Part shown: in pieces, positions 12,201 to 38,387 of the stretch
Layout: the number at the start of each line of letters is the position of its first letter
Position numbering within the stretch: the first letter of the stretch is position 1
NCBI RefSeq assembly: GCF_029227915.1
Contig: NC_079883.1
Span: forward strand, 30,940,001 to 31,004,000
DNA: 64,000 nucleotides
Origin: Hydractinia symbiolongicarpus
Lineage: Eukaryota; Cnidaria; Hydrozoa; Anthoathecata; Hydractiniidae
Direction of reading: 5' to 3'
Made by a program: the position numbers and the translations under genes
The notes under the pieces: model-generated
The model's input: the letters and a program-made list of their open reading frames with translations, nothing else
Database searches by the model: none
What the model was told of the DNA's origin: nothing

Positions 12201-12944
12201 TACTTTCTTTGCATACTTTTGCGTATACGGGCCGAGTCTGGGGTTTACGGGAAATGGCGTGTTTTCGTTTGCCGGCGATTAAACTTCTTTTATTCAGCGT
12301 CTCATCAAAAATGAAAACATTTTTAAAAACTACAAGTCTCATGGGCTTTAGTGGTGAAATAATAATTTAAAAAATCGTTCTGGAAATGAGTTTACACCCT
12401 GGGTACTTTCTTTGTATACTTTTGATTATACGGGCCGAGTCCGGGATTTACGGGAAATTGCGGTTTTTCGTTTGCCGGCGATTAAACTTCTTTTATTCAG
12501 CGTCCCATCAAAAATAAAAACATTTTTGAAAACTACAAGTCTCATGCGTTTTAGTGGTGAAAAAATAATATAAAAAATCGTTCGGGAAATGAGTTTACTC
12601 CCTGGGTACTTTCTTTGTATACTTTTGACTATACGGGCCAAGCCGGGATTTACGGGAAATGGCGGGTTTTCGTTTGCCGGCGATTAAACTTCTTTTATTC
12701 AGTGTCTCATCAAAAATGAAAACATTTTTGAAAACTACAAGTCTCATGCGTTTTAGTGGTGAAAAGATAATTTAAAAAATCGCTCGGGAAATGAGTTTAC
12801 TCCCTGGGTACTTTTTTGTATACTTTTGACTATACGGGCCGAGTCCGGGATTTACGGGAAATCGCAGGTTTTCGTTTGCCGGCGATTAAACTTCTTTTAT
12901 TCAGGGTCTCATCAAAAATGAAAACATTTTTGAAAACTACAAGT
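9295..12944. repeat. Higher-order repeat, two copies of 1825 bp (9 monomers)
   Basis: Diagnostic variants repeat at an offset of 1825 bp: the ATGCGATTTAGTGG variant at about 10110 and 11935, TTTGCATACTTTTGCG near 10385 and 12210, and TCAGGG at 11076 and 12901. Limits are approximate. Near 12945 the second copy switches to a CTTATGCG form not found at the matching place in the first copy. Confidence 0.75.
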
Positions 12945-12949
12945 CTTAT

Positions 12950-15900
12950 GCGTTTTAGTGGTGAAAAGATAATTTAAAAAATCGTTCTGGAAATGAGTTT
13001 ACTCCCTGGGTACTTTCTTTGTATACTTTTGACTATACGGGCCAAGCCCGGGATTTACGGGAAATCGCGGGTTTTCGTTTGCCGGCGATTAAACCTCTTT
13101 CATTAAGCGTCTCATCAAAAATGAGAACATTTTTGGAAACTACAAGTCTCATGCGTTTTAGTGGTGAAAAAAATTTTTAAAAAATCGTTCGGGAAATGAG
13201 TTTACTCCCTGGGTACTTTCTTTGTATACTTTTGACTATACGGGCCAAGCCCGACATTTACGGGAAATCGCGGTTTTTCGTTTGCCGGCGATTAAACTTC
13301 TTTTATTCAGTGTCTCATCAAAAATGAAAACATTTTTGAAAACTACAAGTCTCATGCGTTTTAGTGGTGAAAAGATAATTTAAAAAATCGTTTTGGAAAT
13401 GAGTTTACTCACAGGGTACTTTCTTTGTATACATTCGACTACACGGGCCAAGCCCGGGATTTACGGGAAATCGCGGGTTATCGTTTGCTGGCGATTAAGC
13501 CACTTTCACTAAGCGTCTCATCAAAAATGAAAACATTTCTGAAAACTACAAGTCTCATGCGTTTTAGTGGTGAAAAAATAATTTTAAAAATCGTTCGGGA
13601 ACTAAGTTTACTCCCTGGGTACTTTCTTTGTATACTTTTGACTATACGGGCCGAGTCCGGGATTTACAGGAAGTCGCGGGTTTTTGTTTGCCGGCGATTA
13701 AACTTCTTTTATTCAGCGTCTTATCAAAAATGAAAACATTTTTAAAAACTAAAAGTCTCATGGGCTTTAGTGGTGAAATAATAATTTAAAAAATCCTTCG
13801 GGAAATGAGTTTACACCCTGGGTACTTTCTTTGTATACTTTTGCGTATACGGGCCGAGTCTGGGGTTTACGGGAAATGGCGGGTTTTCGTTTGCCGGCGA
13901 TTAAACTTCTTTTATTCAGCGTCTCATCAAAAATGAAAACATTTTTAAAAACTACAAGTCTCATGGGCTTTAGTGGTGAAATAAAAATTTAAAAAATCGT
14001 TCTGGAAATGAGTTTACACCCTGGGTACTTTCTTTGTACACTTTTGACTATACGGGCCGAGTCCGGGATTTACGGGAAGTCGCAGGTTTTCGTTTGCCGG
14101 CGATTAAACTTCTTTTATTCAGCGTCTCATCAAAAATGAAAACATTTTTGAAAACTACAAGTCTCATGCGTTTCAGTGGTGAAAAAATAATTTAAAAAAT
14201 CGTTCGGGAAATGAGTTTACTCCCTGGGTACTTTCTTTGTATACTTTTGATTATACGGGCCGAGTCCGGGGTTTACGGGAAATGGCGGGTTTTCGTTTGC
14301 CGGCGATTAAACTTCTTTTATTCAGCGTCTCATCAAAAATGAAAACATTTTTGAAAACTACAAGTCTCATGCGTTTTAGTGGTGAAAAGATAATTTAAAA
14401 AATCGCTCGGGAAATGAGTTTATTCCCTGGGTACTTTTTTGTATACTTTTGACTATACGGGCCGAGTCCGGGATTTACGGGAAATCGCAGGTTTTCGTTT
14501 GCCGGCGATTAAACTTCTTTTATTCAGCGTCTCATCAAAAATGAAAACATTTTTGAAAACTACAAGTCTCATGCGTTTTAGTGGTGAAAAAATAAATTAA
14601 AAAATCGTTGGGGAAATGAGTTTACTCCCTGGGCACTTTCTTTGTATACTTTTGACTATACGGGCCAAGCCCGGGATTTACGGGAAATCGCGGGTTTTCG
14701 TTTGCCGGCGTTGAAACTTCTTTTATTCAGCGTCTCATCAAAAATGAAAACAATTTTGAAAACTACAAGTCTTATGCGTTTTAGTGGTGAAAAGATAATT
14801 TAAAAAATCGTTCTGGAAATGAGTTTACTGACAGGGTACTTTTTTTGTATACATTCGACTATATGGGCCAAGCCCGGGATTTACGGGAAATCGCGGGTTT
14901 TTGTTTGCCGGCGATTAAACCTCTTTCATTAAGCGTCTTATCAAAAATGAACACATTTTTGAAAACTACAAGTCTTATGCGTTTTAGTGGTGAAAAGATA
15001 ATTTAAAAAATCGTTCTGGAAATGAGTTTACTCACAGGGTACTTTTTTTGTATACATTCGACTATATGGGCCAAGCCCGGGATTTACGGGAAATCGCGGG
15101 TTTTCGTTTGCCGGCGATTAAACCTCTTTCATTAAGCGTCTCATCAAAAATGAGAACATTTTTGGAAACTACAAGTCTCATGCGTTTTAGTGGTGAAAAA
15201 AAATTTTAAAAAATCGTTCGGGAAATGAGTTTACTCCCTGGGTACTTTCTTTGTATACTTTTGACTATACGGGCCAAGCCCGACATTTACGGGAAATCGC
15301 GGTTTTTCGTTTGCCGGCGATTAAACTTCTTTTATTCAGTGTCTCATCAAAAATGAAAACATTTTTAAAAACTACAAGTCTCATGCGTTTTAGTGGTGAA
15401 AAGATAATTTAAAAAATCGTTTTGGAAATGAGTTTACTCACAGGGTACTTTCTTTGTATACATTCGACTACACGGGCCAAGCCCGGGATTTACGGGAAAT
15501 CGCGGGTTATCGTTTGCTGGCGATTAAGCCACTTTCACTAAGCGTCTCATCAAAAATGAAAACATTTCTGAAAACTACAAGTCTCATGCGTTTTAGTGGT
15601 GAAAAAATAATTTAAAAAATCGTTCGGGAACTGAGTTTACTCCCTGGGTACTTTCTTTGTATACTTTTGACTATACGGGCCGAGTCCGGGATTTACAGGA
15701 AGTCGCGGGTTTTTGTTTGCCGGCGATTAAACTTCTTTTATTCAGCGTCTTATCAAAAATGAAAACATTTTTAAAAACTAAAAGTCTCATGGGCTTTAGT
15801 GGTGAAATAATAATTTAAAAAATCCTTCGGGAAATGAGTTTACACCCTGGGTACTTTCTTTGTATACTTTTGCGTATACGGGCCGAGTCTGGGGTTTACG

Positions 15901-16430
15901 GGAAATGGCGGGTTTTCGTTTGCCGGCGATTAAACTTCTTTTATTCAGCGTCTCATCAAAAATGAAAACATTTTTAAAAACTACAAGTCTCATGGGCTTT
16001 AGTGGTGAAATAAAAATTTAAAAAATCGTTCTGGAAATGAGTTTACACCCTGGGTACTTTCTTTGTACACTTTTGACTATACGGGCCGAGTCCGGGATTT
16101 ACGGGAAGTCGCAGGTTTTCGTTTGCCGGCGATTAAACTTCTTTTATTCAGCGTCTCATCAAAAATGAAAACATTTTTGAAAACTACAAGTCTCATGCGT
16201 TTTAGTGGTGAAAAAATAATTTAAAAAATCGTTCGGGAAATGAGTTTACTCCCTGGGTACTTTCTTTGTATACTTTTGATTATACGGGCCGAGTCCGGGG
16301 TTTACGGGAAATGGCGGGTTTTCGTTTGCCGGCGATTAAACTTCTTTTATTCAGCGTCTCATCAAAAATGAAAACATTTTTGAAAACTACAAGTCTCATG
16401 CGTTTTAGTGGTAAAAAGATAATTTAAAAA
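12950..16430. repeat. Higher-order repeat, 2029-bp period, second copy partial
   Basis: The variants GAGAACATTTTTGG (13123 and 15152) and ACTAAAAGTCTCATGGGC (near 13748 and 15777) recur 2029 bp apart. The match breaks around 14.4 kb/16.4 kb, where GGGCACTTTC occurs 1826 bp apart, so one monomer was lost from the second copy. Boundaries are approximate. Confidence 0.65.
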
Positions 16431-17093
16431 ATCGCTCGGGAAATGAGTTTACTCCCTGGGCACTTTCTTTGTATACTTTTGACTATACGGGCCAAGCCCG
16501 GGATTTACGGGAAATCGCGGGTTTTCGTTTGCCGGCGTTGAAACTTCTTTTATTCAGCGTCTCATCAAAAATGAGAACAATTTTGAAACCTACAAGTCTT
16601 ATGCGTTTTAGTGGTGAAAAAATAATTTAAAAAATCGTTCGGGAAATGAGTTTACTCCCTGGGTACTTTCTTTGTATACTTTTGATTATACGGGCCTAGT
16701 CCGGGGTTTACGGGAAATGGCGGGTTTTCGTTTGCCGGCGATTAAACTTCTTTTATTCAGCGTCTCATCAAAAATGAAAACATTTTTGAAAACTACAAGT
16801 CTCATGCGTTTTAGTGGTGAAAAGATAATTTAAAAAATCGCTCGGGAAATGAGTTTACTCCCTGGGCACTTTCTTTGTATACTTTTGACTATACGGGCCA
16901 AGCCCGGGATTTACGGGAAATCGCGGGTTTTCGTTTGCCGGCGTTGAAACTTCTTTTATTCAGCTTCTCATCAAAAATGAGAACAATTTTGAAACCTACA
17001 AGTCTTATGCGTTTTAGTGGTGAAAAGATTATTTAAAAAATCGTTCTGGAAATGAGTTTACTCACAGGGTACTTTTTTTGTATACATTCGACT

Positions 17094-17097
17094 ATAT
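17094..17097. other. Target site duplication, left (ATAT)
   Basis: ATAT directly precedes the first base of the left inverted repeat and matches ATAT at 23230-23233. Because ATAT is itself a dyad, a 2-bp TA duplication with ends one base longer (TCACGG..CCGTGA) cannot be excluded from this site alone. Confidence 0.8.
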
Positions 17098-17134
17098 CAC
17101 GGCTGTTTCAGAGCGGAAACTAAGACTGCGCATG
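17098..17134 (+). repeat. Left terminal inverted repeat, short-spacer form
   Basis: The outer block CACGGCTGTTTCAG (17098-17111) is followed by a 3-bp spacer AGC and an inner block GGAAACTAAGACTGCGCATG (17115-17134). The right end carries the same two blocks in inverted orientation: outer identical over 14 bp, inner 19 of 20 matching. There the spacer is 13 bp. This end lies beyond the 3' end of the transposase gene. Confidence 0.9.
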
Positions 17135-17173
17135 CGTCAATAATTACGGCCACGTTGAGGCGCAAGATGGCGG
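17127..17173 (+). promoter_or_regulatory. Possible plus-strand promoter-like motifs (NRF1-like, YY1-like)
   Basis: TGCGCATGCGTC at 17127-17138 differs by one position from the NRF1-type palindrome, and CAAGATGGCGG at 17163-17173 matches the YY1-type core. Both motifs are common in animal TATA-less promoters. Together with the downstream plus-strand donor and acceptor they could drive a non-coding transcript entering the element. This is motif reading only, with no further support. Confidence 0.3.
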
Positions 17174-17925
17174 GCGCAAATAAAAACAATCATGATAAAT
17201 AAGTAACTAACTTTTTGAAATCGCTTTTGCATGATAGAATCTATTTCAGTGGATTTAATTTAGTTTTTTAAAGCATTTCAACACGCTGGAAGCTAAATCT
17301 TTCTTTTACCTTTGCGACAAGCATGCTGTTGGAGTAATACTGTGGCAGTTTTGAAGGCATACTTTTTTTTGTTAAAATTAACATGGCAACTTGTTCCAAC
17401 TAATTTTTGGTTTTGTGGACGTTGCGAAGTTATGTGGCTGGTGTATTATATATTTTTGGAAAGCTGAAAGGCTCATCTACAAGGTAAGAAAAACGAAAAA
17501 ACTGTATCAGTACTTCTGAAAGAATGCTAGAGCGCTGAATTCTGGCAATAAAAGTTAGTGTAAAACCTGAAAATTTTAACTCCCTCTTTGACATAATCTA
17601 CTGTATGATTTATTGTAGGCATTAAAACTGTTGTAGTTTACTAAGCTAATATTTCACAGAATAACAACACTAAACAACATTCTATATAAACAATTCTGTA
17701 ACTCTAAATAAGGTTTCTGCGTCTCATACACTACTAACGTAAGCTCGACAAAAAGTCAAATAAAAATGAACTATGCATGTAGTAAGCTAATTAACTGTTC
17801 AATTCTTTTTCTTTCTAGACCAGCTGATCCACCTTTGAAATAATGCAAAGACTAAAGGAGCTTGCAAAGTAATGCTAATATGCAGTTAAAGATATAACTA
17901 GCTATCTAAGCTGTAAGTCTAAAAG
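17135..17925. other. Non-coding left flank of the transposon, copy 1
   Basis: About 790 bp between the left inverted repeat and the stop codon of the transposase. It has no open frame of note on either strand. It contains a CAAGATGGCGG element at 17163-17173, a plus-strand splice donor (AAG/GTAAGA at 17484) and a plus-strand acceptor with a long pyrimidine tract (CTTTCTAG ending at 17818). It also has a minus-strand AATAAA at 17614-17609 and a plus-strand AATAAA at 17547-17552. On the minus strand it should hold the 3' untranslated region of the transposase mRNA. Confidence 0.6.
17609..17614 (-). terminator. Candidate polyadenylation signal of the transposase gene
   Basis: AATAAA on the minus strand, about 310 bases after the stop codon at 17928-17926. 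It is the clearest such hexamer found in the 3' flank. The cleavage site is not determined. Confidence 0.45.
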
Positions 17926-18098
17926 TTATTCTTCACGTGCAATTTTTCTTTTTTTAATTTTTGGTTTTAATTGGCTCGATTCAGGATTTACATTAACAAA
18001 ATGTTGCTTTAATGTATTTCGTAACCGCTCGACTGGGTTTTTGATGCAGCTGTACCTGCTCGACATCCTGTTGATTTCATGATGCAAGCTTTCTCCAC
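17926..18098 (-). CDS. Transposase exon 9 (copy 1): catalytic Glu and C-terminus
   Basis: Codes residues 909-965 and stop TAA (17928-17926). It begins GGESLHHEINRM; E911 lies 21 residues after H890 (RAG1: 20 from H942 to E962), and E916 is the alternative catalytic residue. It ends with a Lys/Arg-rich tail. The acceptor TTTTTAAG/GT is weaker than the others but keeps the conserved GEQGGES reading. Confidence 0.8.
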
Positions 18099-21000
18099 CT
18101 TAAAAATGTTATAATTTGACATTTAAGCTAGCTAGCTACACATTTTCTGAAAAATAACACATTTTGGTAAAAAACACAAATTTTGGTGTTACCAGGTTAC
18201 AAATTTAAGTGGCTGTTTACCTTGTTCGCCATAAAACCCAAATCCAACATTCCATTTTGCTATGAACTCAGTGACATGATCTTCAAGCATATGCAGTTTT
18301 GGTGAAATATTAACTTTTGGCCAGTTAGTTCGCAGATGCATCATGAATTTATTAATTGAAATTTCTAGAATTATGTACTATATGTATATTATTCTTTCTT
18401 TTTGTTTTGTTTTTGGCACATGAAATTTTAAAAAAAACTTATTTATTATTAAAAAAAGGAACAAGTTTCTCACCTAAAGCCAGTATTTCCTCACATGACA
18501 GATATTTTGCCGAATTGTAAATGTTATGAACTTCTGCAAAGTAAGTAAATAACATGTCGTACTTATCCATTTCTAAATTCACACTGTGAATAAGCTGGTC
18601 ATCATGCTTTTGTGCTGCAACAATCTCTTTAATGCTGGATGTTAAATTTTGGATGTTTTCTTTCTATAAGAGCAAGATTGTTTTTTTAATTTTCTTTAAA
18701 TATGTTATTTTTAAATTGCTACATTATTGTTAGTATTAACAAACCTTTAGCAATTTATGTACATGGTTGCCGATAAAACTTTGGCCATGGTAGGCCTGAC
18801 GTTCAACACCCATTTTTTGCAGCGTTTTATCTATTGAAGAAGCACAAGGACCAACACCTAAAATAAGATGAACAAACTATTAAACATAGCTTTAGATTGG
18901 AGAGAATATAAGGCTTGCATCATAAGATCAGAATGAAAATTATAATTTTGGAAAGTTTTTTTTCGGGAATTAAATTTCTTGGAATTTCCAGACAAAAAAA
19001 CATTTGCGAATATCACAAAAAATTACTTAGGTAATAAAAATGATCATACCCACTAAAATTCTTTTGTTGTTTCCCAAGGTTGAGATTTCTAATTCTAATT
19101 CTGTGATTTTCTTCTCAGTTTTTATTATACTTTTCTCGTACGTCAGTATATTTCGTTGTAAGCCACCAGATATTACAAGCCAGTTTAACTGATCTTGCTG
19201 GTTTGCTAATTTGGCTTTTTCATCTTCCAGCTTTTGCTGCAAGTCATTTGTTTCTTTAAGGACTTCGATGTAGTCACCATAATCTGAATCCAGTTCATTG
19301 TCTTCTGTTGCCAACAGCAGAGCTATTTTTACATCATAGTCTTGGCAAGAAGACTCAAACATTTTAAACATCTTTTGATATACACCCAAGGAAATATGAA
19401 GACCAGGAATACAGACCTAAAATTAGGTGTTTATATAGATTTTATTTTGGGATTATTAAATCAACTTGCAGTGGAAAAGCATAAAAATATGATGTATACT
19501 TGATCAATAGGTATGTCAAAAAATATGTTGTCAATGACATTATAAAATTCTTTCGCATTTTTAGGGCTCCCACCACTTTCACGGAAATCTGCTAAATTTT
19601 CTTCAAGTGTCGCCAGTGACCTTTTCTTAAATTTCTTGCGAGTAAACACTGGGATGTTCATTAGTTTTGAGGTAATGTTGCAAAACAAACAGCTGTGACG
19701 CCCTAAACACAAATGTTAAAGTATACATATTTTATTAGAAACTTTTAAAAATAAACCATTTTTAACTATGCATTTCCCATATCTGCGTAGTAAAAACCCA
19801 TTGTTAAACTACAGGAACTTTATGAAGTTGCAAAAAAAGTTCTGTAAAAATTAATTAATTTTGATTATCAACTAGCAACTTGCCCCAGATCTTAAGTAAT
19901 TAATATTTACCATTTGCACCAGTTATACCATACATTGCACACAGAAATTCGTAGTCGCCATACATAAATACACGGAATATCGACTCTTTATATTTGACTT
20001 GTTGCAGCATTTTTATTTGTGGTCAAAAATTAATTAATTTTGATTATCAACTAGCAACTTGCCCCAGATCTTAAGTAATTAATATTTACCATTTGCACCA
20101 GTTATACCATACATTGCACACAGAAATTCGTAGTCGCCATACATAAATACACGGAATATCGACTCTTTATATTTGACTTGTTGCAGCATTTTTATTTGTG
20201 GTCAAAAATTAATTAATTTTGATTATCAACTAGCAACTTGCCCCAGATCTTAAGTAATTAATATTTACCATTTGCACCAGTTATACCATACATTGCACAC
20301 AGAAATTCGTAGTCGCCATACATAAATACACGGAATATCGACTCTTTATATTTGACTTGTTGCAGCATTTTTATTTGTGGTCGAAACCGTTCAAGGCAGA
20401 CTCTTAAGTTTGTTCTTGTGTCTTTCCCTAATTTAAAAAAAAAATATAAAAAATGTTTTGATTTCTACTTTAGATCACTTAGATCATTTCTACTTTAGAT
20501 CACAATTAGACATCACATGCATAGAATTTTGGAAATTCCAGTTTTAATTTTTTTTTTTTCATATTTGTAATATATTGCATTAATGTTTGTTACCTTCAAA
20601 AATGCTAAACATTATTGTGTTTTCCTTCTTGTTTGGGTTTAGAACATTGCCTATTTGATATGCCATTTTAAAACTATTTCCTCCATGGTCTCCACCAATT
20701 TTAACATGGATCTCATTGTCAGGAATGAAACTATGTTTTACAAGTAAATTGTGACATTCTAGCTTTTTGAGTTGATACAGAATGTGGCCAACTACATTAT
20801 ACAGATACCCCCAGGGCCTAGGTATAACGGATACCCTGTTTCCAACTGATAATTTGGTGAGAGGAGCCAGCTCAACTCTCAGTCCTTGGCCTACCCATTC
20901 AGCAGCGACACTTCTTGCTTTTTTTTCTGATTCAATTTTTATGTTGAATGTTTTCAACCAACGTGATATTTCACGTAGTTGATTCCATGGCATGTTTAAA

Positions 21001-22749
21001 TTTGATTTCATTGCTGTGATGTGATTGGCTGGAATAATGACTTCTGTACCCAAATTTTTAATGATAGTATTTCTGTCACTTTCTTCCATAGACTTTAGCA
21101 GTGCTGTGGTCTGTTTTGTGACAGATTGGGTTTCTTCACCAGACATCAGATGGATTAACTCCTTGGCTGTATTTGCTCTTTTCCGCACATTCCTTTCACA
21201 TGTTTCATCAGAAGACTTGCGAGGAATTCTAATGGGTGTTATTGTCAATGGCTAAAATATGGAACATATGTTATTAATTTGTTTTATGTAAAATGTAATA
21301 TTACTATTAAAATTATCATATTGTTACAGACAATTATGTGTACATTATTTTTAATATAACATAGCATAGTTTTGTATTTTTGTATAAAGTAGTTATACAC
21401 ATTTTTTATATAAGATCACTTAACGATGTAGACGCCTTAGCATTTAGGGTGGGCACATCAAAATTTTAGTAAATCTCCTAATATATAGAATGGTTTTTAT
21501 TGACCCCCAAAACTTCCTATATTCTGTGACCCCTCTAGCCACTTACTTATATTTATTATTATTTTTAATTATTTACTCTGAACATTTTAAAATTTGTCTT
21601 GTTCTTATTATGGCTTGTTTTTTGTATAAAAAATGTGTATAAGAAACATTTCACTGGAATTGTAAAAAAATGATAACCTAGGTATGCACATATATAGACA
21701 TATACAAAAGCAACTTATTTTCAGTTTTGATTTCAGCCTTAAAATTGCTAAGATCAAAATTTTTTGCTTTATCAGCCGTTTGAAAATCAGTTGCTTGTTA
21801 AAAAAAGTCAATGTCAAATCACTTTTACTGAGTCCACTCCATACATAAGTAATCTTACTTGTGAACTTCCACTGGGCAATTGGACAGTTTTATTCGGCAA
21901 GTTTGACTGCTGCATTTTTATTCCAACCACATGAGCAATGCATTCTTCTACCTTTTTCGGTACAGGCTTGGAAGGGCTCAACTGCATCATCTCTAGTGTT
22001 GTAAATGACAATGCTGGAGAGCATGTGTGCGATTGTGCAGACAGCAGTTTAAATGAACAACCACATGTTCCCTTGACAACTCGTGTGTTTAAAATCCTGG
22101 AAATGCACAAACCAGGCGAGACATCCCCGGGTGTTGTTGGGATGCTGCAGGTGGGACATCTATTTGAATTTTCCAACCAATTTGTTAAACACAAGGCACA
22201 AAACACGTGGTTACATTGGTTTATCATTAATGGCCTTTTTAAAATATTGCTACACAAAGCACAAATCAGATGTTCCCAGTTGCCTTCACTGATATTTATG
22301 TCTGAGAGAACGTTTCCACTATAGTCAAAAAGTTCAGAGGTTTTTCTGTAAATTTTATTAAGTTCTAGGGGTGTCCAAGTTTTTTCTGCGGAATCCACAG
22401 CTTTGTGTGTTGGGTTACCACCGCCCCTTCTTTTCATAGGTTTGCCACCTCTCTTTTTTTGTGCACTTAATATGCATGTTTTGCACTCGGTGTCTTTATG
22501 TGTATACCATTTAACAGGCACAATAGCGGTAGCTGAGTCACGTTTTAGGACATTACTTATTGTAGCAAAGCACGAGTGACAGAATTTTTTTGGGTGAATG
22601 CCTGCCCGATCAGAATAAAAATCAGCTCTGAAAATACTGTCCAAGTTCTTTATGTGCTCTTGGACAATATGTGATCGTCCAGGCAGAGTGTTTCCACATA
22701 TTCGACACAGCTTGTTCAACCGAGCTAGGTGTAAATCCCCAGTAGCCAT
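17926..22749 (-). CDS. RAG1-like transposase with N-terminal RING finger, nine exons, copy 1
   Basis: Predicted DDE transposase (cut-and-paste, nuclear). Exons in coding order: 22749-21859, 21251-20594, 20427-20269, 19702-19500, 19416-19050, 18857-18745, 18663-18474, 18364-18221, 18098-17926. They total 2898 bp, 965 residues plus TAA, and every junction uses GT..AG with matching phase. The start is the first ATG in the exon, in good context (AAG ATG G). Seen: cysteine/histidine pairs C15/C18, H52/C57/C60, H84/C89/C92; RING C163-C201; a C229/C231/H241/C243 finger; D485 in GGDHGG; D555 in MYGDYEFLC; C574-x2-C577; coiled coil ~686-752; H885-x4-H890; E911 in QGGESLHH; basic tail ~953-964. RAG1 knowledge: D600, D708, E962 catalyse and C727, C730, H937, H942 bind zinc. 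The second-acid-to-CxxC distance (19) and His-His distance (5) are identical here. Family is inferred and splicing is hand-predicted. The gene appears unbroken. Confidence 0.85.
18221..18364 (-). CDS. Transposase exon 8 (copy 1): His-x4-His zinc ligands
   Basis: Codes residues 861-908 plus one base. The SPKLHMLEDHVTEF block holds H885 and H890, five residues apart as H937 and H942 are in RAG1. It ends in GFGFYGEQ. The acceptor is TTCTAG/AA and the donor CAAG/GTAAAC. Confidence 0.82.
18474..18663 (-). CDS. Transposase exon 7 (copy 1)
   Basis: Codes residues 798-860 plus one base. It is a helical-looking linker (begins KENIQNLTSS, ends SCEEILAL) with no recognisable catalytic residue. The acceptor is CTATAG/AAA and the donor TTTAG/GTGAGA. 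Confidence 0.78.
18745..18857 (-). CDS. Transposase exon 6 (copy 1): RQAYHGQSFIGNHVHKL block
   Basis: Codes residues 760-797. It is too short to stand out as an open frame but is bounded by good splice sites (TTTTAG/GTG and AAAG/GTTTGT) with phases that match exons 5 and 7. It contains the His-rich block at ~779-795. Confidence 0.8.
19050..19416 (-). CDS. Transposase exon 5 (copy 1): conserved PGLHISLG block and coiled coil
   Basis: Codes residues 638-759 plus one base. It opens with VCIPGLHISLGVY, a conserved-looking block. It is followed by an acidic stretch and about 67 residues of Leu/Ile heptads rich in Lys, Glu and Gln (about 686-752), an insert predicted to form a coiled coil. The acceptor is TTTTAG/GTC and the donor G/GTATGA. 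Confidence 0.83.
19500..19702 (-). CDS. Transposase exon 4 (copy 1): CxxC zinc ligands
   Basis: Codes residues 570-637. The acceptor TTTAG/GG completes Gly570 and is followed by RHSCLFC (C574 and C577), 19 residues after D555 as in RAG1. The donor is CAA/GTATAC, phase 0. Confidence 0.83.
19846..20382 (-). repeat. 179-bp tandem triplication across the exon 3/intron 3 border, copy 1
   Basis: Three consecutive units of 179 bp (19846-20024, 20025-20203, 20204-20382) that look identical. Each holds 114 bp of exon 3, its splice donor and 65 bp of intron. The unit nearest the gene's 5' end is the functional exon end. The other two lie inside intron 3 as dead exon fragments. The same triplication is present in the second transposon copy. 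Confidence 0.95.
20269..20427 (-). CDS. Transposase exon 3 (copy 1): second catalytic Asp
   Basis: Codes residues 517-569 plus one base of codon 570. The acceptor is AATTAG/GG and the donor AATG/GTAAAT. It contains FRVFMYGDYEFLCAMYG with D555. The last 114 bp of this exon and its donor are repeated twice more downstream in intron 3 (179-bp triplication). Those copies lack an acceptor that would keep the frame open, so only the first donor gives the full protein. Confidence 0.82.
20594..21251 (-). CDS. Transposase exon 2 (copy 1): DNA-binding region and first catalytic Asp
   Basis: Codes residues 298-516 plus the first base of codon 517. The acceptor is TTTTAG/CCA and the donor GAAG/GTAACA. 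A basic segment RNVRKRANTAKE (~316-327) sits where RAG1 has its nonamer-binding domain; equivalence is a guess. HVKIGGDHGGNSFKMAYQ near the end contains D485, the proposed first catalytic acid. Confidence 0.85.
21252..21858 (-). other. Intron 1 of the transposase gene, copy 1
   Basis: A 607-bp AT-rich intron with GTAAGA donor and TTTTAG acceptor. A 69-codon open frame at 21608-21817 (minus strand) has no recognisable domain and lies wholly inside the intron; I do not call it a gene. Nothing else is seen. Confidence 0.7.
21859..22749 (-). CDS. Transposase exon 1 (copy 1): N-terminal zinc region and RING finger
   Basis: Codes residues 1-297. The frame is also open upstream of the ATG to 22806 without another ATG. 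The RING pattern is C-x2-C-x12-C-x-H-x2-C-x2-C-x10-C-x2-C (residues 163-201), the C3HC4 class usually linked to ubiquitin ligase activity, which vertebrate RAG1 also carries. A Lys/Arg/Gly-rich stretch (about 98-112) lies between the first zinc region and the RING and could be a nuclear signal. The donor is CAA/GTAAGA; the open frame runs 14 codons past it to a stop. Confidence 0.88.
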
Positions 22750-23182
22750 CTTGAACTTTAACAAAAATTTTGAAAAAAAAGTACCTAATGTTTGATACAA
22801 TATCAATTCGTAATGTACTGATACACCTACAGTTCTTTTTTTATTCGTATCTCGTAACTATCTTGGAATGATTTTTATAAAAATTATCTGTGGGATAACT
22901 TCGTATCTGAAAATATTTTGCTTTAAGTTGGCATGGTGTCCACAGTCTTCAAAATGGAGGTTGAAAGTTTTTGTTTTGTTTTAGCTAGGCAACAAGCGAA
23001 TAGCTTTGTATTTGAATTAATCTTATTGGTATAGGACTATATTTTATTTAAACCACTTAGTTTCCAGTCCTTAAGTTGGTTTATGTGATTAAAATGCCTA
23101 TTAAACCTGGTGCTAGCTACCCTAAAATTTGTTTACTTTTAAGCGCAACTCGCCCCAGTCCTTATTTTAAATTTTTTTTTGA
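22750..23182 (-). promoter_or_regulatory. 5' flank of the transposase gene, copy 1
   Basis: 433 bp between the start codon and the right inverted repeat, which must hold the transposase promoter and 5' untranslated region if the element is autonomous. It is AT-rich, with no open frame of note. No clear TATA box or initiator could be fixed by eye, so the transcription start is unknown. Confidence 0.45.
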
Positions 23183-23229
23183 CATGCGCAGTCTGAGTTT
23201 CCGAAATCTCGCTAGCTGAAACAGCCGTG
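23183..23229 (-). repeat. Right terminal inverted repeat, long-spacer form
   Basis: Read on the minus strand from 23229: outer block CACGGCTGTTTCAG (23229-23216), a 13-bp spacer (23215-23203), then inner block GGAAACTCAGACTGCGCATG (23202-23183). It is the partner of the left repeat but has 10 bp more between the two blocks. This end lies on the 5' side of the transposase gene. Confidence 0.9.
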
Positions 23230-23233
23230 ATAT
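23230..23233. other. Target site duplication, right (ATAT)
   Basis: ATAT directly follows the right inverted repeat and continues into satellite GGGCCAAGCCCGGG. Confidence 0.8.
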
Positions 23234-24540
23234 GGGCCAAGCCCGGGATTTACGGGAAATCGCGGGTTTTTGTTTGCCGGCGATTAAACCTCTTTCATTA
23301 AGCGTCTTATCAAAAATGAACACATTTTTGGAAACTACAAGTCTCATGCGTTTTAGTGGTGAAAAAATTTTTTAAAAAATCGTTTGGGAAATGAGTTTAC
23401 TCCATGGATATTTTCTTGGTATACTTTTGACTATACGGGCCAAGGCCGACATTTACGGGAAATCGCGGTTTTTCGTTTGCCGGCGATTAAACTTCTTTTA
23501 TTTAGTGTCTCATCAAAAATGAAAACATTTTTGAAAACTACAAGTCTCATGCGTTTTAGTGGTGAAAAGATAAATTAAAAAATCGTTTTGGAAATGAGTT
23601 TACTCACAGGGTACTTTCTTTGTATACATTCGACTACACGGGCCAAGCCCGGGATTTACGGGAAATCGCGGGTTATCGTTTGCTGGCGATTAAGCCACTT
23701 TCACTAAGCGTCTCATCAAAAATGAAAACATTTCTGAAAACTACAAGTCTCATGCGTTTTAGTGGTGAAAAAATAATTTAAAAAATCGTTCGGGAAATGA
23801 GTTTACTCCCTGGATACTTTCTTTGTATACTTTTGACTATACGGGCCGAGTCCGGGATTTACGGGAAGTTGCGGGTTTTTGTTTGCCGGCGATTAAAATT
23901 CTTTTATTCAGCGTCTTATCAAAAATGAAAACATTTTTAAAAACTACAAGTCTCATGGGCTTTAGTGGTGAAATAATAATTTAAAAAATCGTTCGGGAAA
24001 TGAGTTTACACCCTGGGTACTTTCTTTGTATACTTTTGCGTATACGGGCCGAGTCTGGGGTTTACGGGAAATGGCGGGTTTTCGTTTGCCGGCGATTAAA
24101 CTTCTTTTATTCAGCGTCTCACCAAAAATGAAAACATTTTTAAAAACTACAAGTCTCATGGGCTTTAGTGGTGAAATAATAATTTAAAAAATCGTTCTGG
24201 AAATGAGTTTACACCCTGGGTACTTTCTTTGTACACTTTTGACTATACGGGCCGAGTCCGGTATTTACGGGAAGTCGCAGGTTTTCGTTTGCCGGCGATT
24301 AAACTTCTTTTATTCAGCGTCTCATCAAAAATGAAAACATTTTTGAAAACTACAAGTCTCATGCGTTTTAGTGGTGAAAAAATAATTTAAAAAATCGTTC
24401 GGGAAATGAGTTTACTCCCTGGGTACTTTCTTTGTATACTTTTGATTATACGGGCCGAGTCCGGGGTTTACGGGAAATGGCGGGTTTTCGTTTGCCGGCG
24501 ATAAAACTTCTTTTATTCAGCGTCTCATCAAAAATGAAAA

Positions 24541-26164
24541 CATTTTTGAAAACCACAAGTCTCATGCGTTTTAGTGGTGAAAAAATAATATAAAAAATCG
24601 TTCGGGAAGTGAGTTTACTCCCTGGGTACTTTCTTTGTATACTTTTGACTATACGGGCCAAACCCGGGATTTACGGGAAATGGCGGGTTTTCGTTTGCCG
24701 GCGATTAAACTTCTTTTATTCAGCGTCTCATCAAAAATGAAAACATTTTTGAAAACCACAAGTCTCATGCGTTTTAGTGGTGAAAAAATAATATAAAAAA
24801 TCGTTCGGGAAATGAGTTTACACTCTGGGTACTTTCTTTGTATACTTTTGAGTATACGGGCCGAGTCAGGGATTTACGGGAAATCGCAGGTTTTCGTTTG
24901 CCGGCGATTAAACTTCCTTCATTCAGCGTCTCATCAAAAATGAAAACATTTTAGAAAACTACAAGTCTCATGCGTTTTAGTGGTGAAAAAATAATTTAAA
25001 AAATCGTTCGGGAAATGAGTTTACTCCCTGGATACTTTCTATATATACTTTTGATTATACGAGCCGAGTCCGGGGTTTACGGGAAATGGCGGGTTTTCGT
25101 TTGCCGGGGATTAAACTTCTTTTATTCAGCGTCTCATCAAAAATGAAAACATTTTGAAAAACTACAAGTTCCATGGGCTTTAGTGGTGAAATAATAATTT
25201 AAAAAATCGTTCTGGAAATGAGTTTACACCCTGGGTACTTTCTTTGTACACTTTTGACTATACGGGCCGAGTCCGAGATTTACGGGAAGTCGCAGATTTT
25301 CGTTTACCGGCGATTAAACTTCTTTTATTCAGCGTCTCATCAAAAATGAAAACATTTTTGAAAACCACAAGTCTCATGCGTTTTAGTGGTGAAAAAATAA
25401 TATAAAAAATCGTTCGGGAAGTGAGTTTACTCCCTGGGTACTTTCTTTGTATACTTTTGACTATACGGGCCAAACCCGGGATTTACGGGAAATGGCGGGT
25501 TTTCGTTTGCCGGCGATTAAACTTCTTTTATTCAGTGTCTCATCAAAAATGAAAACATTTTTGAAAACTACAAGTCTCATGCGTTTTAGTGGTGAAAAAA
25601 TAATATAAAAAATCGTTCGGGAAATGAGTTTACACTCTGGGTACTTTCTTTGTATACTTTTGAGTATACGGGCCGAGTCAGGGATTTACGGGAAATCGCA
25701 GGTTTTCGTTTGCCGGCGATTAAACTTCCTTCATTCAGCGTCTCATCAAAAATGAAAACATTTTAGAAAACTACAAGTCTCATGCGTTTTAGTGGTGAAA
25801 AAATAATTTAAAAAATCGTTCGGGAAATGAGTTTACTCCCTGGATACTTTCTATATATACTTTTGATTATACGAGCCGAGTCCGGGGTTTACGGGAAATG
25901 GCGGGTTTTCGTTTGCCGGGGATTAAACTTCTTTTATTCAGCGTCTCATCAAAAATGAAAACATTTTGAAAAACTACAAGTTCCATGGGCTTTAGTGGTG
26001 AAATAATAATTTAAAAAATCGTTCTGGAAATGAGTTTACACCCTGGGTACTTTCTTTGTACACTTTTGACTATACGGGCCGAGTCCGAGATTTACGGGAA
26101 GTCGCAGATTTTCGTTTACCGGCGATTAAACTTCTTTTATTCAGCGTCTCATCAAAAATGAAAA
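24541..26164. repeat. Higher-order repeat, two copies of 812 bp (4 monomers)
   Basis: Variants recur 812 bp apart: AACCACAAGTCTCATG (24551 and 25363), ACACTCTGGGTAC (near 24829 and 25641), and CTATATATACTTTTG (near 25039 and 25851). The same block is present at +15158 in the segmental copy (about 39699-41322). Confidence 0.8.
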
Positions 26165-26608
26165 ACATTTTTGAAAACTACAAGTCTCGTGCGTTTTAGT
26201 GGTGAAAAAATAATTTAAAAAATCGTTCGGGAAATGAGTTTACTCCCTGGGTACTTTCTTTGTATACTTTTGACTATACGGGCCAAGCCCGGGATTTACG
26301 GGAAATGGCGGGTTTTCGTTTGCCGGCGATTAAACTTCTTTTATTCAGTGTCTCATCAAAAATGAAAACATTTTTGAAAACTACAAGTCTCATGGGCTTT
26401 AGTGGTGAAATAATAATTTAAAAAATCGTTCGGGAAATGAGTTTACACCCTGGGTACTTTCTTTGTATACTTTAGACTATACGGGCCGAGTCCGGGATTT
26501 ACGGGAAATCGCAGGTTTTCGTTTGCCGGCGATTAAACTTCTTTCATTCAGCGTCTCATCAAAAATGAAAACATTTTTGAAAACTACAAGTCTCATGCGT
26601 TTTAGTGG

Positions 26609-32255: not shown

Positions 32256-32292
32256 CACGGCTGTTTCAGAGCGGAAACTAAGACTGCGCATG
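32256..32292 (+). repeat. Left terminal inverted repeat, copy 2
   Basis: Outer block CACGGCTGTTTCAG at 32256-32269, spacer AGC, inner block at 32273-32292, as in copy 1. Confidence 0.9.
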
Positions 32293-33083
32293 CGTCAATA
32301 ATTACGGCCACGTTGAGGCGCAAGATGGCGGGCGCAAATAAAAACAATCATGATAAATAAGTAACTAACTTTTTGAAATCGCTTTTGCATGATAGAATCT
32401 ATTTCAGTGGATTTAATTTAGTTTTTTAAAGCATTTCAACACGCTGGAAGCTAAATCTTTCTTTTACCTTTGCGACAAGCATGCTGTTGGAGTAATACTG
32501 TGGCAGTTTTGAAGGCATACTTTTTTTTGTTAAAATTAACATGGCAACTTGTTCCAACTAATTTTTGGTTTTGTGGACGTTGCGAAGTTATGTGGCTGGT
32601 GTATTATATATTTTTGGAAAGCTGAAAGGCTCATCTACAAGGTAAGAAAAACGAAAAAACTGTATCAGTACTTCTGAAAGAATGCTAGAGCGCTGAATTC
32701 TGGCAATAAAAGTTAGTGTAAAACCTGAAAATTTTAACTCCCTCTTTGACATAATCTACTGTATGATTTATTGTAGGCATTAAAACTGTTGTAGTTTACT
32801 AAGCTAATATTTCACAGAATAACAACACTAAACAACATTCTATATAAACAATTCTGTAACTCTAAATAAGGTTTCTGCGTCTCATACACTACTAACGTAA
32901 GCTCGACAAAAAGTCAAATAAAAATGAACTATGCATGTAGTAAGCTAATTAACTGTTCAATTCTTTTTCTTTCTAGACCAGCTGATCCACCTTTGAAATA
33001 ATGCAAAGACTAAAGGAGCTTGCAAAGTAATGCTAATATGCAGTTAAAGATATAACTAGCTATCTAAGCTGTAAGTCTAAAAG
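32293..33083. other. Non-coding left flank of the transposon, copy 2
   Basis: Same content as 17135-17925: CAAGATGGCGG at 32321-32331, plus-strand donor at 32642, plus-strand acceptor ending 32976, and minus-strand AATAAA at 32772-32767. No gene is visible. Confidence 0.6.
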
Positions 33084-36000
33084 TTATTCTTCACGTGCAA
33101 TTTTTCTTTTTTTAATTTTTGGTTTTAATTGGCTCGATTCAGGATTTACATTAACAAAATGTTGCTTTAATGTATTTCGTAACCGCTCGACTGGGTTTTT
33201 GATGCAGCTGTACCTGCTCGACATCCTGTTGATTTCATGATGCAAGCTTTCTCCACCTTAAAAATGTTATAATTTGACATTTAAGCTAGCTAGCTACACA
33301 TTTTCTGAAAAATAACACATTTTGGTAAAAAACACAAATTTTGGTGTTACCAGGTTACAAATTTAAGTGGCTGTTTACCTTGTTCGCCATAAAACCCAAA
33401 TCCAACATTCCATTTTGCTATGAACTCAGTGACATGATCTTCAAGCATATGCAGTTTTGGTGAAATATTAACTTTTGGCCAGTTAGTTCGCAGATGCATC
33501 ATGAATTTATTAATTGAAATTTCTAGAATTATGTACTATATGTATATTATTCTTTCTTTTTGTTTTGTTTTTGGCACATGAAATTTTAAAAAAAACTTAT
33601 TTATTATTAAAAAAAGGAACAAGTTTCTCACCTAAAGCCAGTATTTCCTCACATGACAGATATTTTGCCGAATTGTAAATGTTATGAACTTCTGCAAAGT
33701 AAGTAAATAACATGTCGTACTTATCCATTTCTAAATTCACACTGTGAATAAGCTGGTCATCATGCTTTTGTGCTGCAACAATCTCTTTAATGCTGGATGT
33801 TAAATTTTGGATGTTTTCTTTCTATAAGAGCAAGATTGTTTTTTTAATTTTCTTTAAATATGTTATTTTTAAATTGCTACATTATTGTTAGTATTAACAA
33901 ACCTTTAGCAATTTATGTACATGGTTGCCGATAAAACTTTGGCCATGGTAGGCCTGACGTTCAACACCCATTTTTTGCAGCGTTTTATCTATTGAAGAAG
34001 CACAAGGACCAACACCTAAAATAAGATGAACAAACTATTAAACATAGCTTTAGATTGGAGAGAATATAAGGCTTGCATCATAAGATCAGAATGAAAATTA
34101 TAATTTTGGAAAGTTTTTTTTCGGGAATTAAATTTCTTGGAATTTCCAGACAAAAAAACATTTGCGAATATCACAAAAAATTACTTAGGTAATAAAAATG
34201 ATCATACCCACTAAAATTCTTTTGTTGTTTCCCAAGGTTGAGATTTCTAATTCTAATTCTGTGATTTTCTTCTCAGTTTTTATTATACTTTTCTCGTACG
34301 TCAGTATATTTCGTTGTAAGCCACCAGATATTACAAGCCAGTTTAACTGATCTTGCTGGTTTGCTAATTTGGCTTTTTCATCTTCCAGCTTTTGCTGCAA
34401 GTCATTTGTTTCTTTAAGGACTTCGATGTAGTCACCATAATCTGAATCCAGTTCATTGTCTTCTGTTGCCAACAGCAGAGCTATTTTTACATCATAGTCT
34501 TGGCAAGAAGACTCAAACATTTTAAACATCTTTTGATATACACCCAAGGAAATATGAAGACCAGGAATACAGACCTAAAATTAGGTGTTTATATAGATTT
34601 TATTTTGGGATTATTAAATCAACTTGCAGTGGAAAAGCATAAAAATATGATGTATACTTGATCAATAGGTATGTCAAAAAATATGTTGTCAATGACATTA
34701 TAAAATTCTTTCGCATTTTTAGGGCTCCCACCACTTTCACGGAAATCTGCTAAATTTTCTTCAAGTGTCGCCAGTGACCTTTTCTTAAATTTCTTGCGAG
34801 TAAACACTGGGATGTTCATTAGTTTTGAGGTAATGTTGCAAAACAAACAGCTGTGACGCCCTAAACACAAATGTTAAAGTATACATATTTTATTAGAAAC
34901 TTTTAAAAATAAACCATTTTTAACTATGCATTTCCCATATCTGCGTAGTAAAAACCCATTGTTAAACTACAGGAACTTTATGAAGTTGCAAAAAAAGTTC
35001 TGTAAAAATTAATTAATTTTGATTATCAACTAGCAACTTGCCCCAGATCTTAAGTAATTAATATTTACCATTTGCACCAGTTATACCATACATTGCACAC
35101 AGAAATTCGTAGTCGCCATACATAAATACACGGAATATCGACTCTTTATATTTGACTTGTTGCAGCATTTTTATTTGTGGTCAAAAATTAATTAATTTTG
35201 ATTATCAACTAGCAACTTGCCCCAGATCTTAAGTAATTAATATTTACCATTTGCACCAGTTATACCATACATTGCACACAGAAATTCGTAGTCGCCATAC
35301 ATAAATACACGGAATATCGACTCTTTATATTTGACTTGTTGCAGCATTTTTATTTGTGGTCAAAAATTAATTAATTTTGATTATCAACTAGCAACTTGCC
35401 CCAGATCTTAAGTAATTAATATTTACCATTTGCACCAGTTATACCATACATTGCACACAGAAATTCGTAGTCGCCATACATAAATACACGGAATATCGAC
35501 TCTTTATATTTGACTTGTTGCAGCATTTTTATTTGTGGTCGAAACCGTTCAAGGCAGACTCTTAAGTTTGTTCTTGTGTCTTTCCCTAATTTAAAAAAAA
35601 AATATAAAAAATGTTTTGATTTCTACTTTAGATCACTTAGATCATTTCTACTTTAGATCACAATTAGACATCACATGCATAGAATTTTGGAAATTCCAGT
35701 TTTAATTTTTTTTTTTTCATATTTGTAATATATTGCATTAATGTTTGTTACCTTCAAAAATGCTAAACATTATTGTGTTTTCCTTCTTGTTTGGGTTTAG
35801 AACATTGCCTATTTGATATGCCATTTTAAAACTATTTCCTCCATGGTCTCCACCAATTTTAACATGGATCTCATTGTCAGGAATGAAACTATGTTTTACA
35901 AGTAAATTGTGACATTCTAGCTTTTTGAGTTGATACAGAATGTGGCCAACTACATTATACAGATACCCCCAGGGCCTAGGTATAACGGATACCCTGTTTC

Positions 36001-37907
36001 CAACTGATAATTTGGTGAGAGGAGCCAGCTCAACTCTCAGTCCTTGGCCTACCCATTCAGCAGCGACACTTCTTGCTTTTTTTTCTGATTCAATTTTTAT
36101 GTTGAATGTTTTCAACCAACGTGATATTTCACGTAGTTGATTCCATGGCATGTTTAAATTTGATTTCATTGCTGTGATGTGATTGGCTGGAATAATGACT
36201 TCTGTACCCAAATTTTTAATGATAGTATTTCTGTCACTTTCTTCCATAGACTTTAGCAGTGCTGTGGTCTGTTTTGTGACAGATTGGGTTTCTTCACCAG
36301 ACATCAGATGGATTAACTCCTTGGCTGTATTTGCTCTTTTCCGCACATTCCTTTCACATGTTTCATCAGAAGACTTGCGAGGAATTCTAATGGGTGTTAT
36401 TGTCAATGGCTAAAATATGGAACATATGTTATTAATTTGTTTTATGTAAAATGTAATATTACTATTAAAATTATCATATTGTTACAGACAATTATGTGTA
36501 CATTATTTTTAATATAACATAGCATAGTTTTGTATTTTTGTATAAAGTAGTTATACACATTTTTTATATAAGATCACTTAACGATGTAGACGCCTTAGCA
36601 TTTAGGGTGGGCACATCAAAATTTTAGTAAATCTCCTAATATATAGAATGGTTTTTATTGACCCCCAAAACTTCCTATATTCTGTGACCCCTCTAGCCAC
36701 TTACTTATATTTATTATTATTTTTAATTATTTACTCTGAACATTTTAAAATTTGTCTTGTTCTTATTATGGCTTGTTTTTTGTATAAAAAATGTGTATAA
36801 GAAACATTTCACTGGAATTGTAAAAAAATGATAACCTAGGTATGCACATATATAGACATATACAAAAGCAACTTATTTTCAGTTTTGATTTCAGCCTTAA
36901 AATTGCTAAGATCAAAATTTTTTGCTTTATCAGCCGTTTGAAAATCAGTTGCTTGTTAAAAAAAGTCAATGTCAAATCACTTTTACTGAGTCCACTCCAT
37001 ACATAAGTAATCTTACTTGTGAACTTCCACTGGGCAATTGGACAGTTTTATTCGGCAAGTTTGACTGCTGCATTTTTATTCCAACCACATGAGCAATGCA
37101 TTCTTCTACCTTTTTCGGTACAGGCTTGGAAGGGCTCAACTGCATCATCTCTAGTGTTGTAAATGACAATGCTGGAGAGCATGTGTGCGATTGTGCAGAC
37201 AGCAGTTTAAATGAACAACCACATGTTCCCTTGACAACTCGTGTGTTTAAAATCCTGGAAATGCACAAACCAGGCGAGACATCCCCGGGTGTTGTTGGGA
37301 TGCTGCAGGTGGGACATCTATTTGAATTTTCCAACCAATTTGTTAAACACAAGGCACAAAACACGTGGTTACATTGGTTTATCATTAATGGCCTTTTTAA
37401 AATATTGCTACACAAAGCACAAATCAGATGTTCCCAGTTGCCTTCACTGATATTTATGTCTGAGAGAACGTTTCCACTATAGTCAAAAAGTTCAGAGGTT
37501 TTTCTGTAAATTTTATTAAGTTCTAGGGGTGTCCAAGTTTTTTCTGCGGAATCCACAGCTTTGTGTGTTGGGTTACCACCGCCCCTTCTTTTCATAGGTT
37601 TGCCACCTCTCTTTTTTTGTGCACTTAATATGCATGTTTTGCACTCGGTGTCTTTATGTGTATACCATTTAACAGGCACAATAGCGGTAGCTGAGTCACG
37701 TTTTAGGACATTACTTATTGTAGCAAAGCACGAGTGACAGAATTTTTTTGGGTGAATGCCTGCCCGATCAGAATAAAAATCAGCTCTGAAAATACTGTCC
37801 AAGTTCTTTATGTGCTCTTGGACAATATGTGATCGTCCAGGCAGAGTGTTTCCACATATTCGACACAGCTTGTTCAACCGAGCTAGGTGTAAATCCCCAG
37901 TAGCCAT
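33084..37907 (-). CDS. RAG1-like transposase with N-terminal RING finger, nine exons, copy 2
   Basis: Exons in coding order: 37907-37017, 36409-35752, 35585-35427, 34860-34658, 34574-34208, 34015-33903, 33821-33632, 33522-33379, 33256-33084, again 2898 bp and 965 residues. The large exons give the same amino acid sequence as copy 1, and the small exons and splice sites read the same. Residue numbers and domains are therefore those given for the first copy: RING 163-201, D485, D555, C574/C577, H885/H890, E911. Two identical intact genes 15 kb apart are more likely the result of recent duplication than of selection. Which copy, if any, is expressed inside the satellite cannot be told from the sequence. 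Confidence 0.85.
35004..35540 (-). repeat. 179-bp tandem triplication across the exon 3/intron 3 border, copy 2
   Basis: Units 35004-35182, 35183-35361 and 35362-35540, matching 19846-20382. Presence in both copies shows the triplication is older than the 15-kb segmental duplication. Confidence 0.95.
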
Positions 37908-38340
37908 CTTGAACTTTAACAAAAATTTTGAAAAAAAAGTACCTAATGTTTGATACAATATCAATTCGTAATGTACTGATACACCTACAGTTCTTTTTTT
38001 ATTCGTATCTCGTAACTATCTTGGAATGATTTTTATAAAAATTATCTGTGGGATAACTTCGTATCTGAAAATATTTTGCTTTAAGTTGGCATGGTGTCCA
38101 CAGTCTTCAAAATGGAGGTTGAAAGTTTTTGTTTTGTTTTAGCTAGGCAACAAGCGAATAGCTTTGTATTTGAATTAATCTTATTGGTATAGGACTATAT
38201 TTTATTTAAACCACTTAGTTTCCAGTCCTTAAGTTGGTTTATGTGATTAAAATGCCTATTAAACCTGGTGCTAGCTACCCTAAAATTTGTTTACTTTTAA
38301 GCGCAACTCGCCCCAGTCCTTATTTTAAATTTTTTTTTGA
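37908..38340 (-). promoter_or_regulatory. 5' flank of the transposase gene, copy 2
   Basis: Same as 22750-23182; presumed promoter and 5' untranslated region, with no motif fixed by eye. Confidence 0.45.
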
Positions 38341-38387
38341 CATGCGCAGTCTGAGTTTCCGAAATCTCGCTAGCTGAAACAGCCGTG
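38341..38387 (-). repeat. Right terminal inverted repeat, copy 2
   Basis: Outer block at 38374-38387, 13-bp spacer, inner block at 38341-38360, as in copy 1. Confidence 0.9.

Follow-up and report, generated by a model that had tools for sequence, protein, structure and literature searches.

Within the 64,000-nucleotide window (the whole stretch of Hydractinia symbiolongicarpus DNA analysed here, G000:C9:30940001-31004000 of a 480.9-Mb assembly), a complete transposon carrying a nine-exon transposase gene lies embedded in satellite DNA. The element is present twice, and its two copies are the sole stretches of the window that are not covered by satellite. The features are as follows, in positions of the window:

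17094..17097, left copy of the 4-bp target-site duplication, ATAT
17098..23229, minus strand (gene), complete Chapaev transposon of 6,132 bp, with a 100% copy at 32256-38387
17098..17134, plus strand, terminal inverted repeat (TIR) beside the 3' side of the gene: 12 outer bp and a spacer of 5 bp precede an inner block that starts at base 18 (GAA at base 19)
17926..18098, minus strand, exon 9: proposed catalytic E911 at 18091-18093, C-terminus and stop
18221..18364, minus strand, exon 8: H(4)H zinc motif (H885, H890)
18474..18663, minus strand, exon 7: placed by the joined frame and alignment to relatives
18745..18857, minus strand, exon 6: placed by the joined frame and alignment to relatives
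19050..19416, minus strand, exon 5: carries the LH motif and, between the second Asp and the Glu, a helical insert resembling a coiled coil
19500..19702, minus strand, exon 4: placed by the joined frame and alignment to relatives
19846..20386, minus strand, 179-bp unit in three tandem copies, each with the 3' part of exon 3, its donor and part of intron 3
20269..20427, minus strand, exon 3: second proposed catalytic Asp, D555, at 20312-20314
20594..21251, minus strand, exon 2: DUF1280/Chapaev core, proposed catalytic D485 at 20688-20690
21859..22749, minus strand, exon 1: Chapa domain, a zinc region resembling the importin-binding part of RAG1 (about 22441-22638), and C3HC4 RING (about 22147-22263)
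23183..23229, minus strand, TIR beside the 5' side of the gene: the 12 outer bp of the other TIR and a spacer of 15 bp precede an inner block that starts at base 28 (GAA at base 29)
23230..23233, right copy of the 4-bp target-site duplication, ATAT
32256..38387, minus strand, second identical copy: 6,132 bp without a difference, the same insertion duplicated with the satellite

Joined across eight GT..AG introns, the nine exons give 2,898 nt, that is, 965 codons and a stop with 0 internal stops, and GC content is 38% in exons and 25.6% in introns. The uninterrupted 965-residue frame that the initial annotation had assembled from nine minus-strand segments is confirmed, its junctions being supported by relatives: seven of the eight align gaplessly with the relative P0001, and junction 5 falls in a variable stretch in which P0001 is one residue shorter and other relatives are up to three residues shorter. 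Every exon can be aligned separately to relatives (the seven nearest long ones were used), with identities of 42-52% in exon 2 and 51-61% in exon 8. A chance origin of the nine-exon model is excluded. Intron 1 measures 607 nt, intron 3 measures 566 nt with the donor that keeps the frame, and the other six measure 81-192 nt. What the initial annotation overlooked, while its nine exons and 965 codons stand, is the tandem triplication of the 3' part of exon 3 together with its donor.

The element starts and finishes with CACG..CGTG at 17098 and 23229, and GACTATATGGGCC, the sequence of the empty site, occurs 14 times in the satellite. Owing to the palindromic nature of ATAT, the ends could also be read as longer, with a 2- or 0-bp duplication; this was ruled out by the 4-bp duplications of other copies. 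The two copies in the window share one insertion: a block is repeated at a distance of 15,158 bp (12344-32254 against 27505-47412, 98.4% identity over 19.9 kb), with zero differences over 9,595 bp that include the element. This 15,158-bp tandem repeat of satellite plus transposon (12344-47412) reflects either a recent unequal exchange or an effect of assembly. The 203-bp satellite is also found beside other Chapaev insertions on other contigs (L036, L041 and L042). Folding of the two TIRs as single-stranded DNA gave nothing above shuffled sequences.

Exon 2 is found in at least 22 places of the genome at about 100% identity, and we examined 22 copies, namely the two of the window and 20 others (L010-L029). 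Both ends and a perfect 4-bp duplication were found in all 20 other copies, the 20 duplications all being different, and terminal CAC...GTG is common to the window copy and the 20 others; the 22 near-identical copies thus occupy 21 sites, each with its own 4-bp duplication. The other copies are 5,548-5,957 bp long, one of them (L013) with an internal loss of 226 nt. All 965 codons are retained in 19 of the 22 (the window's two and 17 of the 20 others), and the remaining three comprise one with a 12-nt in-frame loss and two with broken frames. Transposons of this type generally survive in genomes as old, broken copies. Once columns with more than two gaps are excluded, the alignment of the copies has 29 variable columns, 19 of which are singletons and the other 10 of which form one short stretch common to three or four copies, a star-like pattern that marks a very recent burst. 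A shorter locus at G000:C5:5586833-5591268, with both ends of this family correctly spaced and part of exon 2 with a stop, is likely to be an internally deleted copy. Outside this assembly, an exon-1 protein from another sequence source (P0015) is 99% identical, and its three differences, as judged by eye, are absent from the list for the 19 full-frame copies, so that the family seems to be present in other individuals or close relatives. No relatives of the transposase were found in viral_contigs, genome_contigs or plasmids. A scan of genome_contigs with the TIR pattern gave zero matches, and the sole match in viral_contigs (L001) was rejected as due to chance: it has no tblastn match to relatives, it resembles the element over short stretches only, and it lacks a second end whose sequence goes on in the same way as the first.

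In the window copy the three 179-bp units differ from each other at 0-1 of 179 positions, and the three exon-3 donors are identical. The frame is kept by the first donor only; splicing from the second or third leads to a stop after two more codons. The number of units varies among the 22 copies, with one in 5, two in 15 and three in the window's two. As the later donors truncate the protein, full-length transposase from multi-unit copies hinges on use of the first donor, and these copies might also make a truncated product that contains both Asp residues and lacks the Glu. With two of three identical donors leading to an early stop, the window copy may yield little full-length protein.

The domain content of the predicted protein was examined by profile HMM searches, which had been proposed along with the initial annotation. 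Exon 1 matches the Pfam RAG1 importin-binding family (RAG1_imp_bd, PF12560) at 2.5e-8 and a RING family (PF13923) at 5.2e-12, and it aligns with residues 156-357 of RAG1 at an E-value of 1.4e-13; exon 2 matches DUF1280 (PF06918) at 4.1e-12 (46.6 bits, against a cut-off of 25). Among 36 aligned relatives, D485 and D555 are Asp in all 36, and E911, which is aligned with a Glu of lancelet RAG1L, is Glu in all 32 that have a residue at that position. The motifs of CMC/Chapaev transposases are all present (C574/C577 of C(2)C, LH at 643-644 and H885/H890 of H(4)H; conservation was examined in the same 36 relatives). We propose from these alignments that D485, D555 and E911 form the catalytic triad. 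The RING is probably an E3 ubiquitin ligase. Searches with a 36-row profile gave no sequence match to the RAG1 core at E-values up to 1, and with an 8-row profile nothing fell below 0.1, the best hit being lancelet RAG1L at 0.15. A fold resembling the RAG1 core is seen in the predicted structure of P0001, a RING-less relative with 45% identity. Some RAG1 chains, from residues 393-412 onwards, align with that model from residues 171-184 at an rmsd of 6-12, so that the helical stretch before the core could be regarded at best tentatively as a counterpart of the RAG1 NBD. A model of the N-terminal region, built for the near-identical P0015, matches RING and zinc folds, the RAG1 structure 1rmd being one among many others; the VIA and Foldseek lists for it consist mostly of generic RING domains, and thus suggest no special tie to RAG1 in that part.

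DUF1280 corresponds to Chapaev transposases according to the accessible text of PMC3985635, and the hallmarks of Chapaev given in the portion of PMC4079192 available to us are CAC/GTG ends, duplications of 3-4 bp and the C(2)C, LH and H(4)H motifs. All of these are found here (CAC...GTG ends, a 4-bp duplication, a predicted DDE triad with its motifs and a DUF1280 core preceded by Chapa and then RING), and the combination of Chapa, RING and Chapaev core had already been described by Kapitonov and Koonin in 2015 (PMC4411706, in the part consulted), so that the element belongs to a known kind. Within that kind it is, on sequence, a separate new family, which we call family 1. The nearest long protein found is P0001 (45% identical over 74%); fragment relatives are P0011 (57% over 30%) and P0015 (99% over 31%, evidently the same family). 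DUF1280 is annotated in 7 of 7 relatives of one set and in 9 of 10 of another, the tenth being an N-terminal fragment. In a tree of 45 cores the transposase and seven RING-less proteins form a set of eight (SH-aLRT 99), and the RING-bearing Hydra proteins lie outside it. The presence of the RING requires 6 changes on this tree, and 143 of 500 sets of shuffled labels (mean 6.7) need as few, so that the RING is not clustered, the count being a rough one in that the RING was scored by pattern on gene predictions, some of them fragmentary.

We conclude, with a probability of roughly 0.9, that the locus is one copy, apparently intact, of a young and recently mobile Chapaev transposon of the autonomous, cut-and-paste type, whose single gene encodes a 965-residue transposase with a RAG1-like layout, and which may be active at present. 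The designation "RAG1-like transposase" given in the initial annotation fits the N-terminus and the core fold of a relative; it does not fit the core sequence, which is of the DUF1280/Chapaev type and has no RAG1 match. Descent from the RAG1/Transib lineage, as a TransibSU- or ProtoRAG-like close relative of the V(D)J ancestor, would agree with the CAC ends as well as with that N-terminus and modelled fold, yet it is very improbable given the DUF1280 core, common among the relatives, the lack of a RAG1-core match with the 36-row profile, and duplications of 4 bp in the window and all 20 other copies (21 of 21 insertions), where those of Transib are of 5 bp in the accessible part of PMC4411706; membership of the Transib family itself is refuted by the duplications and the core. 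Nor is the element of the N-RAG-TP type, with RAG1 N-terminal-like sequence alone, since a DUF1280 core with the predicted triad follows. An intact frame with many introns might be expected of a domesticated host gene, a reading to which we give practically no credence, refuted as it is by 22 near-identical copies at 21 sites with a 4-bp duplication at each. We consider it unlikely, though far less so, that the window copy is a non-autonomous passenger, in which mis-splicing of the triplicated exon 3 yields a product of some 570 residues that has both Asp residues but lacks the Glu, perhaps a repressor, while transposase is supplied by single-unit copies. Besides the three identical donors and the early stops behind the downstream ones, the length of intron 3 speaks for this, as the last donor makes it shortest (208 nt, against 566 nt for the frame-keeping donor) and six of the other seven introns are of 81-192 nt; on the other hand, the 607-nt intron 1 indicates that a long intron is spliced in the same gene, a 159-nt exon may favour the first donor, and the two-unit copies are the commonest (15 of 22), so that an extra unit has not halted the lineage.

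We compared the ends of the element with those of other Chapaev families in the same genome. The two ends of family 1 have 12 outer bases in common, followed by a spacer of 5 (3' side of the gene) or 15 (5' side) and an inner block identical at 20 of 21 positions, and the same spacing is found in all 20 other copies (there the spacers were counted from a 14-base outer match, as 2 and 12). Family 2 (L030-L032) is RING-less, 4,549 bp long, 56% identical in exon 2 and present in 15 places; its three copies are 99.98-100% identical to each other, with a 4-bp duplication each. L041 and L042 were rejected as a separate family, being family-2 copies inside satellite. The RING pattern is present, as in family 1, in families 3, 4, 5, 7 (in L038; L037 is broken) and 11, and absent from family 2. 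Both ends, defined as CACG..CGTG with a matching duplication, were available for families 2 (three copies), 3 (two), 5 (one of two, L040; L039 lacks a 3' end flanked by the matching duplication), 7 (two) and 11 (one of two, L043), the 3' ends of families 5 and 11 being located as CACG behind a matching duplication; family 4 (L035/L036), with no defined pair of ends, was left out.

Each of the six families has a GAA at base 19 on the 3' side and at base 29 (families 1, 2, 5 and 7) or 30 (families 3 and 11) on the 5' side, a mark picked post hoc; four of them have an extra GAA among the first 45 bases. Independently of GAA, the best 14-base inner match has an offset of 10 in families 1, 5 and 7 and of 11 in families 3 and 11, each equalled by at most 1 of 300 shuffles. 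For family 2 an offset of 4 (11/14) ranks above one of 10 (10/14), and 5 of 300 shuffles are as good. Between families, inner blocks align best at offset 0 in just 8 of 15 pairs of 3'-side ends and within one base of it in 8 of 15 pairs of 5'-side ends, and every pair that fails includes family 2 or 11. Averaged over pairs of families, identity is 1.00 at bases 1-4, 0.42 and 0.48 at bases 5-12, and 0.24 and 0.33 in the spacers. Whereas the reversed pattern occurs 12 times in the genome, CACGGNTGNTTC-N{0,30}-GGAA occurs 156 times. Among the 100 of these 156 matches listed, the spacer is 5 in 39 and 15 in 40, and 64 are exact ends of family 1 or 2; the other 36 have spacers of 5 (7 matches), 15 (8), 14 (2), 16 (2) and 1 (8), with 9 scattered. 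The ends are unequal and bipartite, with a near-fixed offset of one helical turn. No description of such ends in Chapaev was found in the accessible parts of the papers cited here; Chapaev itself was reportedly first described in Repbase Reports.

What these ends mean is a question on which we are more cautious. We suggest tentatively, at somewhat below even odds, that Chapaev follows a 12/23-like pairing rule, by which every element has one short-spaced (3' side) and one long-spaced (5' side) end and only unlike ends are synapsed; the evidence comes from one genome and one superfamily. For the same reason both forms of end could simply have been inherited by descent from an ancestral indel with no role in pairing, which is a real, if doubtful, possibility and one with which the slight preference of family 2 for offset 4 over 10 agrees. 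Against mere inheritance, the spacer letters have diverged (identities of 0.24 and 0.33) whereas an offset of 10 or 11 is kept, and the change of one base that sets families 3 and 11, at 11, apart from the others, at 10, still leaves one turn.

In our main reading the transposase comprises a Chapa zinc domain, a RING and a RAG1-like RNase-H core with D485, D555 and E911, and a predicted zinc site (C574xxC577/H885-H890) surrounds the coiled-coil-like insert. We propose that transposition proceeds as follows. A transposase dimer would grip a short and a long end at once, its core contacting the outer CAC and a second DNA-binding part the inner block; this part may be the helical region that precedes the core, at the position of the NBD in RAG1. 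Since the inner block lies one helical turn further in on the 5' side, the correct pair would be one short and one long end. The dimer would then cut at CAC and join the target with a 4-bp stagger.

For specialists the surprise lies in the one-turn offset of the ends and not in the type of element. If a 12/23-like rule operates in Chapaev, either its logic existed before RAG and Transib or a shared geometric constraint led to it twice, and a young cnidarian element would offer a natural test system; Hydractinia is amenable to laboratory work. The family bears on whether Chapaev transposases act like RAG1, on the age of the unequal-end logic behind V(D)J recombination, and on the role of a RAG1-type zinc/RING N-terminus in a transposase, for which the RING-less family 2 provides a contrast within the same genome.

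The Chapaev elements with Chapa and RING in the accessible part of PMC4411706 have the same order of Chapa and RING, the DUF1280 core, CAC/GTG ends and 3-4 bp duplications; the Hydractinia family differs from them, as there described, in being very young, in its unequal one-turn ends and in an exon-3 unit that varies from 1 to 3. DUF1280 and RING proteins of Hydra vulgaris, such as P0054 (LOC105850185), also have the order Chapa, RING and core, but are 37% identical in exon 2 and fall outside the set formed by the transposase and the seven RING-less proteins. N-RAG-TP of Aplysia likewise carries a RAG1 N-terminal-like region in a transposon and, in the text available of PMC8355894, is made entirely of such sequence, whereas the Hydractinia element adds a full core. 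ProtoRAG of lancelets has bipartite, asymmetric terminal repeats that begin with CAC, with spacers of 27/31 in the accessible text of PMC8289069, which makes an offset of 4, against 10-11 in the Hydractinia Chapaevs. The reverse complement of its TR5 element in that source, CAAGATGGC, is found at 17163-17171 and 22745-22753. These sites lie near the left end and at the start codon, and there are 4 in the window, the second copy included, against 0.2 expected from shuffles. The sequence may be no more than a start-codon or YY1-like motif. Vertebrate RAG1 resembles the transposase in its collinear N-terminal zinc/RING region, apparently in its core fold, as modelled for P0001, and probably in the place of the Glu, as aligned through lancelet RAG1L. 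RAG1 and its recombination signal sequence (RSS), which has a spacer of 12 or 23 bp between its heptamer and its nonamer (PMC8289069, in part), differ from the Hydractinia element in the sequence family of the core, in a stagger of 5 instead of 4 bp, and in an A-rich nonamer in place of a dissimilar inner block. In the 12/23 RSS the inner block starts at 20 and 31, and in the Hydractinia Chapaevs at about 19 and 29-30, which brings the Chapaev spacing close to 12/23.
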